A DNA stretch of 64,000 nucleotides from Thomasclavelia ramosa DSM 1402 (GTDB lineage: Bacteria > Bacillota_I > Bacilli_A > Erysipelotrichales > Coprobacillaceae), in contig NZ_CP036346.1 of assembly GCF_014131695.1 (NCBI RefSeq), positions 682,001 through 746,000 on the forward strand, read 5' to 3'. Positions 25,929 through 42,297 of this stretch are shown here, in pieces. The notes under the pieces were generated by a model. The model searched no databases and was not told the origin of the DNA. It worked only from the letters and a program-made list of their open reading frames with translations. Every line of letters begins with the position of its first letter. Positions within the stretch are counted from its first letter, which is position 1. Position numbers and translations under genes: made by a program.

Positions 25929-27572
25929 ATGCAAAAAAGTTGGTGGCAGGAGGCTGCTGTTTATCAGATTTATCCGCGGAGTTTTCAAGATAGTAATAAC
26001 GATGGGATTGGAGACTTGCAGGGAATTATCAGTCGTTTAGATTATATTAAAAATTTAGGGGTTGATGTTATTTGGTTATGTCCAGTATATCAATCACCAA
26101 ATTATGATAATGGTTATGATATTAGTGATTATCAGGATATTATGGCTGATTTTGGAACAATGGCTGATTTTGAAGAATTATTGAAACAAGCACATCAAAA
26201 AGGTTTAAAAATTATTATGGATCTAGTTGTAAATCATACTTCATTTAAGCATCGCTGGTTTGTTGAAAGCCGTAAATCTAAAGATAATGAGTATCGTGAT
26301 TATTATATTTGGCGTGAGGGGAAAAATGATCAACCGCCTAATCTTCAGCAATCGGTTTTTGAGGGATCAGCCTGGCAATATGATGAAGATACAGAAATGT
26401 ATTATTTACATTTATATACAAAGGAACAACCTGATTTGAATTGGGAAAATGAAAAAGTTAGAAATGAAGTATATAAAATGATGGAGTGGTGGCTAGACAA
26501 AGGTATCGATGGTTTTAGGATGGATGTTATTAACCAAATATCTAAAGATTTTGAAAAAATGGATAAAGCCATTATTAATGATCCGCATATGTATGAAATT
26601 ATTTCTAATGGACCACGAGTACATGAATTTCTTCAAGAGATGCATGATCGTGTTTTAGCTAAATATGATACGATGACAGTGGGAGAAACAGCTGATGTTA
26701 GTGTAGAAGATGCTCTATTATATGTAGGGTTTGATCGTCGTGAATTGAAGATGATTTTTCAGTTTGAACATATGTCGTTAGATAAAGGACCAAATTTAAC
26801 TTATCAGCGTCCTAAATTAGCAGATTTAAAAGTAGTTTTTGAACGGTGGCAAACAGGTTTGAATGGTAAAGCATGGAATGCTTTATATTGGGATAATCAT
26901 GACCGCCCACGTGCAGTTTCTAAATATGGTGATGATTCAACCCCTTTTTATCTTGAAAAATCTGCGAAAATGCTAGCATTATTCATGTTTTGGATGCAAG
27001 GAACACCATATATTTATCAAGGTGAAGAAATTGGAATGACAAATGCATATTATCAATCAATGACACAGTATCGCGATGTTGATGCATTAAATAAGTATGA
27101 AGTTTTTAAACAGAATTATGATGAAGAAACGATCATTGCTTATTTTGGTAAACGTTCCCGTGATAATGCTCGGATGCCAATACCGTGGGATAACAGTAGG
27201 TTTGGAGGTTTTAGTATTGTTCAGCCGTGGCTCGCTCCAAGTCAAAAATATACAAATATTACAGTTGAAAACGCTTTAAAAGACCCTAACTCGGTATATT
27301 ATTTTTATCGTGATCTACTGCGATTAAGAAAAGAATATGAGGTATTGATCTATGGTGACTATCAGCAGCTTTTAAAAGAACATCTCCAAGTTTATGCTTA
27401 TCGAAGAACATTAAACGAACAACAGGTTATAGTTATTTGTAATTATAGTAAAGATGAAGTGGAAATAGATTTAGAATTTATTCAAGGAACTTTGCTGATT
27501 AGTAATTATGAAGATGATTTAAAACAAATATTAAGAAGCTATGAAGCAAAAGCTTATTTGGCAGGGAAGTAA
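25929..27572 (+). CDS. GH13 alpha-glucosidase, oligo-1,6-glucosidase type
   Basis: 547 residues, cytoplasmic (no signal peptide). GH13 regions are clear: DLVVNHTS, GFRMDVIN (nucleophile Asp199), VGETADV (acid/base Glu253) and WDNHDRPR (Asp325). The N-terminus WWQEAAVYQIYPRSFQDSNNDGIGDL and the QPDLNWENEKVR segment place it in the oligo-1,6-glucosidase/trehalose-6-P hydrolase/maltase group. Residue 200 after the nucleophile is Val, which in the studied enzymes goes with alpha-1,6 specificity (isomaltose, dextran-derived oligosaccharides). It follows the AraC gene. Confidence 0.9.
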   Translation: MQKSWWQEAAVYQIYPRSFQDSNNDGIGDLQGIISRLDYIKNLGVDVIWLCPVYQSPNYDNGYDISDYQDIMADFGTMADFEELLKQAHQKGLKIIMDLVVNHTSFKHRWFVESRKSKDNEYRDYYIWREGKNDQPPNLQQSVFEGSAWQYDEDTEMYYLHLYTKEQPDLNWENEKVRNEVYKMMEWWLDKGIDGFRMDVINQISKDFEKMDKAIINDPHMYEIISNGPRVHEFLQEMHDRVLAKYDTMTVGETADVSVEDALLYVGFDRRELKMIFQFEHMSLDKGPNLTYQRPKLADLKVVFERWQTGLNGKAWNALYWDNHDRPRAVSKYGDDSTPFYLEKSAKMLALFMFWMQGTPYIYQGEEIGMTNAYYQSMTQYRDVDALNKYEVFKQNYDEETIIAYFGKRSRDNARMPIPWDNSRFGGFSIVQPWLAPSQKYTNITVENALKDPNSVYYFYRDLLRLRKEYEVLIYGDYQQLLKEHLQVYAYRRTLNEQQVIVICNYSKDEVEIDLEFIQGTLLISNYEDDLKQILRSYEAKAYLAGK

Positions 27573-27586
27573 ACTTCCCTTTTTTA
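27564..27586 (+). terminator. Terminator of the GH13 gene
   Basis: Stem GGGAAGT / ACTTCCC overlapping the TAA stop, followed by T6. Confidence 0.88.
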
Positions 27587-27639
27587 CTTGCTTAAATTTT
27601 TGAATAATCATAAAATAAGATTATATAGAGGAGATAATT

Positions 27640-38263: not shown

Positions 38264-39175
38264 ATGATATATACAGTAACGTTAAACCCAGCAATTGATT
38301 ATGTAATTAAAGTAGATAATTTTGAAACCGGAATTGTCAATAGAACAAAACAAGAAAACATGTTTTTTGGTGGTAAAGGAATTAATGTTTCTAACGTTTT
38401 AAAAACTTTAGGTGAAAAAAGTACGGCGTTAGGATTTATCGCAGGATTTACTGGCAAAGCAATCAAAGAGGGATTAGAAGCTAAAGGATTAAAAACTGAT
38501 TTTGTTGAAGTTGCCGGATTATCAAGAATCAACGTGAAGATGAAATCTGATAATGAAACTGAAATTAATGGGATGGGACCACAAATTAAAGATGCACAAG
38601 TTCAAGCATTATTAGGTAAGTTAGATAATTTAAAAGATGGTGATATTCTAGTTTTATCTGGAAGTATTCCAGGCAGTATGCCGGATGATATATATGAAAA
38701 AATTATGGAATATGTAAAATCAAAAAATGTTTTGATCGTAGTCGATGCAACTAATAATTTATTGATGAACTGTCTAAAGCATCATCCATTTTTGATTAAG
38801 CCAAATAATCATGAATTAGCTGAAATTTTTAATGTTGAAATTAAAAATAAAGAAGATGTCGTTGTTTATGCTAAGAAATTACAAACAATGGGAGCTAAAA
38901 ATGTGTTAGTTTCGATGGCTGGAGATGGAGCAGTATTAGTCGATCAAAATAATGATGTACATATAACATCTGCTCCTAAAGGTGAGGTTAAAAATTCAGT
39001 TGGAGCGGGTGATAGTATGGTCGCTGGATTTATTTACGGTTATATTAAGACAAATGATTTCAAAACGGCTTTAAAACAGGCTACAGCTACTGGTAGTGCA
39101 ACTGCATTCAGTGAAGATTTGGCATCAAAAGAAAAAATAGATGAATTATTAAAAACAATAAGTGAGGATGAATAA
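38264..39175 (+). CDS. fruK: 1-phosphofructokinase
   Basis: 303 residues, PfkB-family kinase turning fructose 1-phosphate into fructose 1,6-bisphosphate. Motifs: TVTLNPAIDYVI at the start, GGKGINVSNVLKTLG, LSGSIPGSMP, and the C-terminal anion-hole/base motif VGAGDSMVAGF. The gene order fruK-fruA and the 1-nt overlap (TAATG) with the EII gene favour 1-phosphofructokinase over tagatose-6-P kinase. No FruR (DeoR) gene precedes it. AAGGAG site before ATG 38264. Confidence 0.93.
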   Translation: MIYTVTLNPAIDYVIKVDNFETGIVNRTKQENMFFGGKGINVSNVLKTLGEKSTALGFIAGFTGKAIKEGLEAKGLKTDFVEVAGLSRINVKMKSDNETEINGMGPQIKDAQVQALLGKLDNLKDGDILVLSGSIPGSMPDDIYEKIMEYVKSKNVLIVVDATNNLLMNCLKHHPFLIKPNNHELAEIFNVEIKNKEDVVVYAKKLQTMGAKNVLVSMAGDGAVLVDQNNDVHITSAPKGEVKNSVGAGDSMVAGFIYGYIKTNDFKTALKQATATGSATAFSEDLASKEKIDELLKTISEDE

Positions 39176-41061
39176 TGAAAATTACAGATTTATTATGTCT
39201 GCAGGGAATTGATATGAATGGGGAAGTTGCTAATAAAGAAGAAGCGATCGATCACTTAGTTGATTTAATGGTGGGTACTGGAAATATTAGTGATAAACTA
39301 GCCTTTAAAAAAGGTATTTTAGCTCGCGAAGCTCAAAGTACAACGGGAATTGGAGAAGGAATTGCAATCCCGCATGCCCAAGTAGCAGCAGTAAAAAAAC
39401 CTGGACTAGCAGTAATGATAGTTAAAGATGGTGTGGATTATCAATCATTAGATAGTCAACCAGCACGGTTGTTTTTTATGATTGCAGCACCAGTTGATGG
39501 TGGTAACATTCATTTGGAAACATTAGCAAGATTATCCGGGATGTTAATGGATAATGATTTTAAAGAAAACTTAATTAATGCTAGTGATGCAGTGGAATTT
39601 TTAAGATTAATTGATGATAAAGAAAATGAAATAGTGAAAGTAAAAGAAGAAACTGACGGTACTAATTATGAAGTTTTAGCAGTTACCGCATGTCCTACTG
39701 GAATTGCTCATACTTTTATGGCAGCAGAAAGTTTAGAAGCAAAAGCTAAAGAAATGAACATATTATTTAAAGTAGAGACAAATGGGGCAACAGGGCCTAA
39801 AAATGTTCTTACGGCTGAAGAAATCAGTAAGGCACGATGTATTATTGTGGCAGCAGATAAACAAGTGGAGATGTCACGTTTTGATGGTCGGCCTGTAATT
39901 ATAACTAAAGTAGCTGATGGAATTAATAAAGCAGAGGAGTTATTGTCGCAAGCAATAAATGGTAATGTAGAAATTTATCATCATCAAGGAGATAAAGTGG
40001 TTAGTAGTTCTGCCAATGAGGGAATTTGGCGAAAATTATATACCCAATTGACAGATGCTTTAAGTAAAATATTGCCAATCATTATTGGATCGGGTGCATT
40101 GATTTCAATTGCTTCATTAGCAGCAAGTTATAATTTATTTGGAATCAAACAAATTTATGATAGTATTTGGCTAAGTAACAGTTATATTCTGGGGATAACC
40201 GTTAATGGGATGATCGTTGCTTTATTTGCTGGCTTTATTGGTCAGGCAATTGCAAGTCAGCAGGGATTTGCAGTAGCTCTTGCTGGCGGGGCTGCAATGT
40301 TATTAAATAATATGTATCTACAAAATATGCCTAGTCCTGGTATTTTAGGTGCAATCATAGCGGGCTTTATTGGTGGATATGTTGTAATTTTATTACAAAA
40401 AATTTGTCGTAAATTGCCAGAATGTTTAGATGGTATAAAGCCAACAGTAATATATCCGATTTTTGGGGTCATGATTACGGGTGTTTTATCATATTTGATT
40501 AGTCCTTATGTTGGAAGTCTAAATCAGACTATTAGTGTATTTATTGGTAGTATGGATATTGTTTATAAACTAATTTTAGGAGTTATTGTTGGGGGAATGA
40601 TGTCTGTTGACATGGGTGGCCCAGTTAATAAAATTGCTTATCTTTTTGGAATAGCTCAAATTGTTGAAGGTAACTTTGATGTTATGGCTGCTGTAATGGC
40701 CGGCGGAATGGTACCGCCATTAGCAATTGCAATTAGTACAACTTTCTTTAGAAATAAATTTACATTAACTGAACGTAAACTAGGTTGTCAAAATTACTTA
40801 AAAGGCTTAATGTTTATTTCTGAAGGGACAATTCCTTTTGTTCAAAAAGACCCCCGCTTAGTAACATTAGCTTGCATTGTTGCTTCAGCAGTAGCTGGTG
40901 GTTTTTCAATGCTTTATAATTGTGGAATTAGAATTCCTCATGGTGGAATCTTTGTATTACCATTAATAGCGCATCCCTTTAGATATATTGTTGCTTTATT
41001 AGCAGGAAGTCTTTGTGGAGCTGTTATTTATGGATTCTTTAAAGAAATTGGAGAAGAATGA
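39175..41061 (+). CDS. fruA: PTS fructose-specific EIIABC
   Basis: 628 residues carrying three PTS domains in the order IIA (~1-145, phospho-His in GIAIPHAQ), IIB (~165-265, phospho-Cys in VTACPTGIAHTFMAAE) and membrane IIC (~295-620, with GGMMSVDMGGPVNK and GTIPFVQKDP). It imports fructose as fructose 1-phosphate, the substrate of the fruK product encoded just ahead. The length and domain order are typical of Bacillota FruA. Confidence 0.95.
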   Translation: MKITDLLCLQGIDMNGEVANKEEAIDHLVDLMVGTGNISDKLAFKKGILAREAQSTTGIGEGIAIPHAQVAAVKKPGLAVMIVKDGVDYQSLDSQPARLFFMIAAPVDGGNIHLETLARLSGMLMDNDFKENLINASDAVEFLRLIDDKENEIVKVKEETDGTNYEVLAVTACPTGIAHTFMAAESLEAKAKEMNILFKVETNGATGPKNVLTAEEISKARCIIVAADKQVEMSRFDGRPVIITKVADGINKAEELLSQAINGNVEIYHHQGDKVVSSSANEGIWRKLYTQLTDALSKILPIIIGSGALISIASLAASYNLFGIKQIYDSIWLSNSYILGITVNGMIVALFAGFIGQAIASQQGFAVALAGGAAMLLNNMYLQNMPSPGILGAIIAGFIGGYVVILLQKICRKLPECLDGIKPTVIYPIFGVMITGVLSYLISPYVGSLNQTISVFIGSMDIVYKLILGVIVGGMMSVDMGGPVNKIAYLFGIAQIVEGNFDVMAAVMAGGMVPPLAIAISTTFFRNKFTLTERKLGCQNYLKGLMFISEGTIPFVQKDPRLVTLACIVASAVAGGFSMLYNCGIRIPHGGIFVLPLIAHPFRYIVALLAGSLCGAVIYGFFKEIGEE

Positions 41062-41833: not shown

Positions 41834-41871
41834 TCGAAGGATAAAATTTCTAATTATTTGTTTTAGATTAG

Positions 41872-41906
41872 TTCACATTTAATTCATAGAGTGATGCTAG
41901 GATAAT
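41872..41906 (+). promoter_or_regulatory. sRNA copy 1 promoter with hexamer direct repeat
   Basis: TTCACA-N5-TTCATA (41872-41888), an 11-bp-period direct repeat, lies 12 nt before a -10 GATAAT (41901-41906). No good -35 exists, so activation by an OmpR/PhoP-type response regulator bound in place of the -35 is plausible. The arrangement resembles Pho boxes. Confidence 0.55.
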
Positions 41907-41909
41907 AGT

Positions 41910-42042
41910 GTCGAAAGACAAACCATAATAATATGTAAAATATATTAATCCCCTCATATATGTTTTACAACCTGAATGATGGATGATTCCCTCTCCCAAA
42001 AACTCATCCATCCTATAAGGAGTCTCCCCTGGCTCCTTTTTT
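41910..42042 (+). ncRNA. Small RNA copy 1 with three C-rich hairpin loops
   Basis: Predicted ~133-nt transcript. 5' GTC-GAAA-GAC tetraloop hairpin (41910-41919). Hairpin 1 (41934-41969) has a 12-bp stem and loop containing CCCC. Hairpin 2 (41978-42012) has a perfect 9-bp stem GATGGATGA / TCATCCATC and loop with CCCTCTCCC. Hairpin 3 (42017-42038) has an 8-bp stem AAGGAGTC / GGCTCCTT, loop TCCCCT, then T6 as terminator. Exposed C-rich loops are the mark of sRNAs that pair with Shine-Dalgarno sequences. No coding frame. Confidence 0.82.
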
Positions 42043-42061
42043 ATTTTAAAAAATTATACGG

Positions 42062-42096
42062 TTCACATTTAATTCATAGAGCGGTGCTAGGATAAT
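42062..42096 (+). promoter_or_regulatory. sRNA copy 2 promoter with hexamer direct repeat
   Basis: The same TTCACA-N5-TTCATA (42062-42078) and GATAAT (42091-42096) as copy 1. The box and -10 are unchanged, while two bases between them differ. Confidence 0.55.
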
Positions 42097-42099
42097 AGT

Positions 42100-42233
42100 G
42101 TCGAAAGACAAACCATAATAATATGTAAAATATATTAATCCCCTCATATATATTTTACAACTTAAATGATGGATGATTCCCTCTCCCAAAAACTCATCCA
42201 TCCTATAAGGAGTCTCCCCTGGCTCCTTTTTTT
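42100..42233 (+). ncRNA. Small RNA copy 2 with three C-rich hairpin loops
   Basis: Same layout as copy 1. In hairpin 1 the eighth stem pair is U-A here and U-G in copy 1, so the helix is kept in both. The three loops are identical to copy 1. The terminator has T7. The transcript is expected to end about 65 bp before the PHP-hydrolase start, so it is independent of that gene. Confidence 0.82.
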
Positions 42234-42297
42234 ATTTTATTACTGTACTTTTTTTTAAGAATTGCATATAATCATAAAAAAAGAAGGGGTGATAAAG

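Follow-up and report, generated by a model that had tools for sequence, protein, structure and literature searches.

Two near-identical units stand side by side in the genome of Thomasclavelia ramosa DSM 1402, and the question is what they encode and what their products would do. An earlier note on this DNA read them as a duplicated small RNA (sRNA) gene whose C-rich loops may repress several mRNAs. We analyzed the surrounding 64,000 nucleotides, called the window here, together with related genomes. At a probability of about 0.72, we favor the reading that the units are tandem genes for a trans-acting, anti-Shine-Dalgarno sRNA that belongs to a multicopy family and would be driven by a response regulator.

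Layout and fold of the tandem units

The units occupy positions 41871-42047 and 42061-42237. They are 177 nt each and 96% identical, and they form a direct repeat with a spacing of 190, as the earlier note had described. The copies differ at 7 positions within the repeat, and the C-rich loops do not differ at all. The neighbors named in the note are in place, with one gene added: from left to right we found the fructose operon (38264-41061), a HAD hydrolase gene, the sRNA pair and the PHP hydrolase gene. Each unit consists of GTTCACATTTAATTCATA, 9 bases, TAGGAT and a predicted transcript of ~130 nt. The order within the transcript is a 5' hairpin (GUC-GAAA-GAC), hairpin 1 (loop AAUCCCCUCA), hairpin 2 (loop UUCCCUCUCCC) and a terminator with a CCCC loop. 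The features are as follows.

41872-41888, plus strand: copy 1 putative regulator box TTCACA-TTTAA-TTCATA, an 11-bp direct repeat (near-invariant in 10 homologous units; exact genome matches; composite promoter ~tenfold enriched in 43 genomes)
41898-41903, plus strand: copy 1 -10 element TAGGAT, with TGC just before it (box-N9-TAnnnT geometry common to the family; conserved in the alignment)
41909-42047, plus strand: copy 1 predicted small RNA with an inferred start, ~130 nt (fold z -7.1; covariance models)
41910-41919, plus strand: copy 1 5'-terminal hairpin GUC-GAAA-GAC (fold; invariant within the genus; covaries between classes as helix 1)
41934-41969, plus strand: copy 1 hairpin 1, loop AAUCCCCUCA (fold, genus conservation, covariation)
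41978-42012, plus strand: copy 1 hairpin 2, loop UUCCCUCUCCC (stem covaries, loop fixed)
42017-42038, plus strand: copy 1 intrinsic terminator, CCCC in loop (terminator prediction; helix 4 covaries)
42062-42078, plus strand: copy 2 putative regulator box TTCACA-TTTAA-TTCATA (alignment conservation; exact genome matches)
42088-42093, plus strand: copy 2 -10 element TAGGAT (alignment conservation; exact promoter matches)
42099-42237, plus strand: copy 2 predicted small RNA (fold z -7.5; covariance models; 7 differences from copy 1)
42124-42159, plus strand: copy 2 hairpin 1 (fold)
42168-42202, plus strand: copy 2 hairpin 2 (fold)
42207-42228, plus strand: copy 2 intrinsic terminator (terminator prediction)

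Each unit thus has the -10 element and the terminator that had been assigned to it. The two terminator-like sites lie on the sRNA strand, where 0.1 are expected per region. No consensus sigma-70 promoter was found at the units because the -35 hexamer is absent. A direct repeat, TTCAYA-N5-TTCATA, lies nine bases before the -10 element of each copy and was overlooked in the earlier note.

Each copy folds at -34.1 kcal/mol, compared with -15.2 and -13.7 kcal/mol for shuffled sequences (z -7.1 and -7.5). All four C runs have an unpaired probability of 1.00 in the fold ensemble, and the second loop spans 17 nt. The earlier description of three hairpins with C-tract loops holds for the exposure of the C runs, but it missed the additional 5'-terminal hairpin, and the third loop is that of the terminator itself. 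The CCCC of this third loop is lost in one species (G006). We propose that the 5' hairpin, the two hairpins and the terminator would together keep the C-rich sequences unpaired. The 5' hairpin and the terminator probably also make the sRNAs stable.

Conservation and covariation

BLAST found just these two close copies in the T. ramosa genome and one copy, 88-92% identical, in each of the other Thomasclavelia genomes examined (8/8). Among these nine genomes, only that of T. ramosa has two copies at the site. BLAST matches in other genera were absent except for one (L011), which we rejected as chance. In an alignment of 10 units, the promoter box is nearly invariant and the C tracts of the hairpin loops are invariant; linkers and tails vary. 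The single copy in each relative and the conserved alignment indicate that the duplication is recent and that the RNA itself is older.

The earlier note had proposed a covariance search starting from both copies, and such searches showed that the hairpins are conserved in relatives. A first model, built from ten genus copies, found relatives in many genera of the bacterial family and a second tandem pair in the T. ramosa genome. A second model was searched in 316 genomes of one order. It matched 29 of the 43 that belong to the family and 1 of the 273 others. The lone outside match (G256) is nearly identical to the G006 copy and lies on a 4.1-kb contig of a 79%-complete bin; we take it as probably misbinned. 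We also rejected a weak match of the second model at window positions 27489-27589, which covers the end of an amylase-family gene plus a terminator. In one relative (G039; L170 1156-1441, minus strand), the sRNA terminator is followed immediately by a group II intron.

The relatives fall into classes with one plan: the box, a 5' TGTC..GAC hairpin, a hairpin with CCCCUCUCCC or a similar sequence, and a terminator that often has a CCCC loop. Between classes, the stems change by compensatory mutation and the loop CCCUCUCCC is fixed. Among 27 distinct rows of hairpin 2, which were selected for possession of a stem, the eight inner pairs are 99.5% paired, compared with 64% when arms are swapped across rows; the loop hardly varies. 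An alignment of 27 copies has changes on both sides in 27 of 32 pairs, with 95.4% of cells paired. It scores 0.489 for covariation, whereas shuffled partners score 0.145 and slid partners at most 0.104. The alignment had been fitted to the structure, which inflates this result somewhat.

Two further loci of the T. ramosa genome carry RNAs of this kind, bringing its number to at least 5 (two tandem pairs plus L370).

G000:C1:2778524-2778815, minus strand: second tandem pair, also from this sRNA family (L203), upstream of pyrG
G000:C1:322288, minus strand: further short RNA (L370; L375 is of the same type) with a 5' hairpin, unpaired CCCUCCC and a terminator, preceded by a one-mismatch box

The one-mismatch box driving L370/L375-type RNAs is conserved in eight Thomasclavelia genomes. 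Upstream of pyrG, sRNAs were seen in other genera as well (L236, L237, L238, L241 and L306).

Proposed pairing with Shine-Dalgarno sequences

The C-rich loops would pair with G-rich Shine-Dalgarno regions and block the translation of several mRNAs, and the adjacent second copy would raise the dose. We predicted targets in ~464 kb with 405 gene starts, about a seventh of the genome, with starts chosen for having a Shine-Dalgarno sequence. Predicted binding of the three loops is stronger at gene starts than at internal sequence, but shuffled loops of equal composition score almost as high and are exceeded only slightly. Pairing is therefore plausible but unspecific at this level, and we single out no target from the predicted candidates. 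The complementarity that the earlier note proposed is real; it is mostly a matter of composition and says little about specific targets.

The RNAs might instead act as protein sponges or decoys, and fixed loops on changing stems would also fit a protein-binding site. CsrA-type sponges show GGA in their loops, whereas the loops here show C runs. The authors who described LhrC of Listeria speculate on a protein-binding role for that sRNA, but C-rich runs are the usual anti-Shine-Dalgarno motif of low-GC Gram-positive sRNAs (PMC4132741). We consider a sponge function unlikely and retain base pairing as the preferred mode of action.

A promoter box shared across the family

We searched the 43 family genomes for the composite promoter pattern TTCAYA-N5-TTCAYA-N(8-11)-TAnnnT, with the reversed pattern as a control. 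The pattern gave 218 matches and its reverse 21, a roughly tenfold enrichment in which a few sites are counted twice owing to the variable gap. In the nine Thomasclavelia genomes, sites that match exactly at the fixed gap are nearly all promoters of the sRNAs at the two loci. Genes behind the box in other genera include groES-groEL, mreB and those for a membrane zinc metallopeptidase and a cation ATPase; we assigned these gene names from the sequence.

The loci examined contain 95 distinct box promoters, 43 of which lead to short terminated non-coding transcripts. Among these predicted transcripts, many of which were first found with RNA models, 95% have a C run of at least 3 and 86% have two or more, compared with 57% and 20% of shuffles. 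On the other strand the values are 5% and 0%. For 13 of the 43 the box search was the only source, and C runs are present in 12 of these.

The groES-groEL promoters of several genera (L226, L255, L261, L262, L303 and L304) combine the same box (GTTCAYATTCAGTTCAYA) with a CIRCE-type-looking repeat, TTAGCA..GAGTGCTAA. This arrangement suggests dual control of the chaperonin. A TTAACATATAGTTCACA box also precedes a gene for a small flavodoxin-like protein (L371, G000:C1:1155372), with counterparts in several Thomasclavelia genomes.

Candidate regulators of the box

The geometry of the box is typical of an OmpR-type response regulator such as CiaR. Such a regulator would bind the direct repeat TTCAYA-N5-TTCATA in each gene's own promoter, in place of a -35 element, and a stress that activates it would turn on all sRNA copies at once. 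The T. ramosa genome encodes 19 OmpR-type regulators, and L287 is the best of the 19 against CssR. Its DNA-binding domain shares 55% identity over 86 residues with the solved Bacillus subtilis CssR (7cx5_A), and the next best shares 46% over 71. Judged by this domain, L287 is a CssR orthologue. The CssR-type candidate gene lies at genome position 2859627, and a counterpart of L287 was matched in 43/43 family genomes.

The published CssR half-site is TTTTCACA (PMC6749698). The core of the sRNA box (TTCACA/TTCATA) agrees with it, but the preceding bases differ (GTTCACA). We did not find the sRNA-type box in the htrA upstream region in Thomasclavelia, and upstream of cssR we found only a TTCACA pair spaced by 10 bp, in other genera. 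We put the prediction that a CssR-type protein reads the box at slightly less than even odds, and it remains the best candidate. Induction would then come from envelope or protein-folding stress.

Against CssR, a response regulator of another kind is encoded in one box-driven operon (L293). None of the 19 OmpR-type genes of T. ramosa is preceded by a clear box, and we rejected autoregulation of the genome's own regulator. The two-component system immediately before htrA (L340 and L285; G000:C1:1007510-1010269) is L285 and not the CssR orthologue; htrA itself lacks the TTCAYA repeat.

PhoP boxes resemble an 11-bp direct repeat of the TTNAYA type, and the genome has a pst locus. The box could thus be read by the phosphate regulator PhoP, which would make the RNAs, otherwise as described, phosphate-starvation sRNAs. 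A well-conserved box of the TTTACATAAACTTAACA type lies upstream of pstS in Thomasclavelia (L191-L198) and is a probable PhoP box. It has T or A where the sRNA box, TTCACATTTAATTCATA, has C, and the two are unlike. The sRNA-type box moreover precedes groESL and mreB in relatives. Given this TTTACATAAACTTAACA sequence at the genus's pst locus, PhoP is quite unlikely to be the regulator, and we rejected a Pho box after this comparison with the genus's own pst promoter.

Comparison with known small RNAs

The earlier note had also suggested an Rfam search. No sRNA family reached its gathering score for the window sRNAs or for nineteen loci of relatives, and LhrC was absent even among permissive matches. 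The best sub-threshold scores were those of the alphaproteobacterial ar14 (23.2 bits; gathering 58.8) and Atu_C8 (18.4 bits; gathering 50). These lie far under the gathering scores and come from unrelated hosts; we take the matches as chance or convergence.

In Listeria monocytogenes, lhrC1-4 lie at one locus and lhrC5 lies elsewhere, and the promoter of each depends on a response regulator, LisR, for which that study knew of no consensus (PMC4132741). Target binding by LhrC involves three UCCC sites, located in loops and in a single-stranded stretch (PMC4132741). The Thomasclavelia sRNAs are likewise multicopy, have a response-regulator-type box for each copy and expose several C runs (four, at probability 1.00). 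They differ in their host family, their promoter repeat, a hairpin layout that includes a 5' hairpin, and the absence of an Rfam match.

The csRNAs of the streptococcal CiaRH regulon occur in several copies per genome and have an unpaired anti-Shine-Dalgarno sequence and an intrinsic terminator (PMC3091779). The unpaired sequence of a csRNA is complementary to the Shine-Dalgarno sequence and the start codon. The CiaR box consists of two direct hexamer repeats, TTTAAG-N5-TTTAAG, ~10 bp before the -10 element (PMC3091779). The Thomasclavelia sRNAs share two direct hexamers 5 bp apart before the -10 element, unpaired C runs and an intrinsic terminator. However, their conserved box is TTCAYA-N5-TTCATA and not the CiaR sequence NTTAAG-N5-TTTAAG, their C runs lie in hairpin loops of covarying stems, and they have no Rfam match.

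The comparison with RsaE in the earlier note is sound in that RsaE/RoxS is a low-GC Gram-positive sRNA with a similar C-rich unpaired motif. The sRNAs here are distinguished by a multicopy family, a response-regulator-type box and stem-loop presentation, and no Rfam match links the two. Because every copy has such a box and the RNAs belong to a multicopy family, RsaE is a less apt comparison than LhrC and the csRNAs. By anatomy, the Thomasclavelia sRNAs match LhrC and the csRNAs and would work like them; by promoter box and Rfam, they belong to neither.

Other readings of the locus

The units lie between two operons on the same strand, where a leader or terminator acting in cis on the PHP hydrolase gene or on the fructose operon might also lie. 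Each of them has its own promoter box and terminator, however, and two stand in a row. The same two genes flank the sRNA in G005, but the neighbor in G006 is different, and relatives elsewhere adjoin quite diverse genes, among them pyrG and a release-factor gene. A cis-acting role is very unlikely.

That the units encode a small protein is highly improbable: ATGATGGATGAT, which both copies contain (in copy 2 from 42166), could open a short frame, but neither unit has an ORF of at least 10 aa with a Shine-Dalgarno sequence, the alignment shows short frames shifted between species by changes in loop length, and the ATG is missing in other classes of the family. The earlier claim that no reading frame is conserved was correct, and we rejected the coding reading on the absence of a Shine-Dalgarno sequence and of a conserved frame. 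A mobile or repetitive element with no role in regulation would fit two near-identical adjacent copies, which only this genome has, but we rejected this equally remote reading because there are just two such copies, relatives are single-copy, phages and plasmids give no match, and loops and promoter are near-invariant on covarying stems.

Implications for the family

The positions 41871-42237 are best read as two tandem genes for a trans-acting sRNA, local members of a multicopy family. The earlier description stands: the RNA gene is duplicated, non-coding and terminated, its C-loop hairpins are conserved, and no Rfam family reaches threshold. In Rfam and the literature searched, neither of which is complete, we found no sRNA of this gut-bacterial group. 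The sRNA family is large and apparently undescribed. Beside LhrC and the csRNAs, it is a third multicopy set of C-loop sRNAs that is apparently driven by a two-component system, and we detected no sequence kinship to either.

More tentatively, with the odds somewhat against it, a single stress response regulator, conserved throughout the bacterial family, might have sRNAs as its main output. This species would have at least 5 per genome, in several classes that retain the C-rich loop but swap the stem. Envelope or protein-folding stress would then lead to broad translational repression, and related genera would have added groESL and mreB to the same box.
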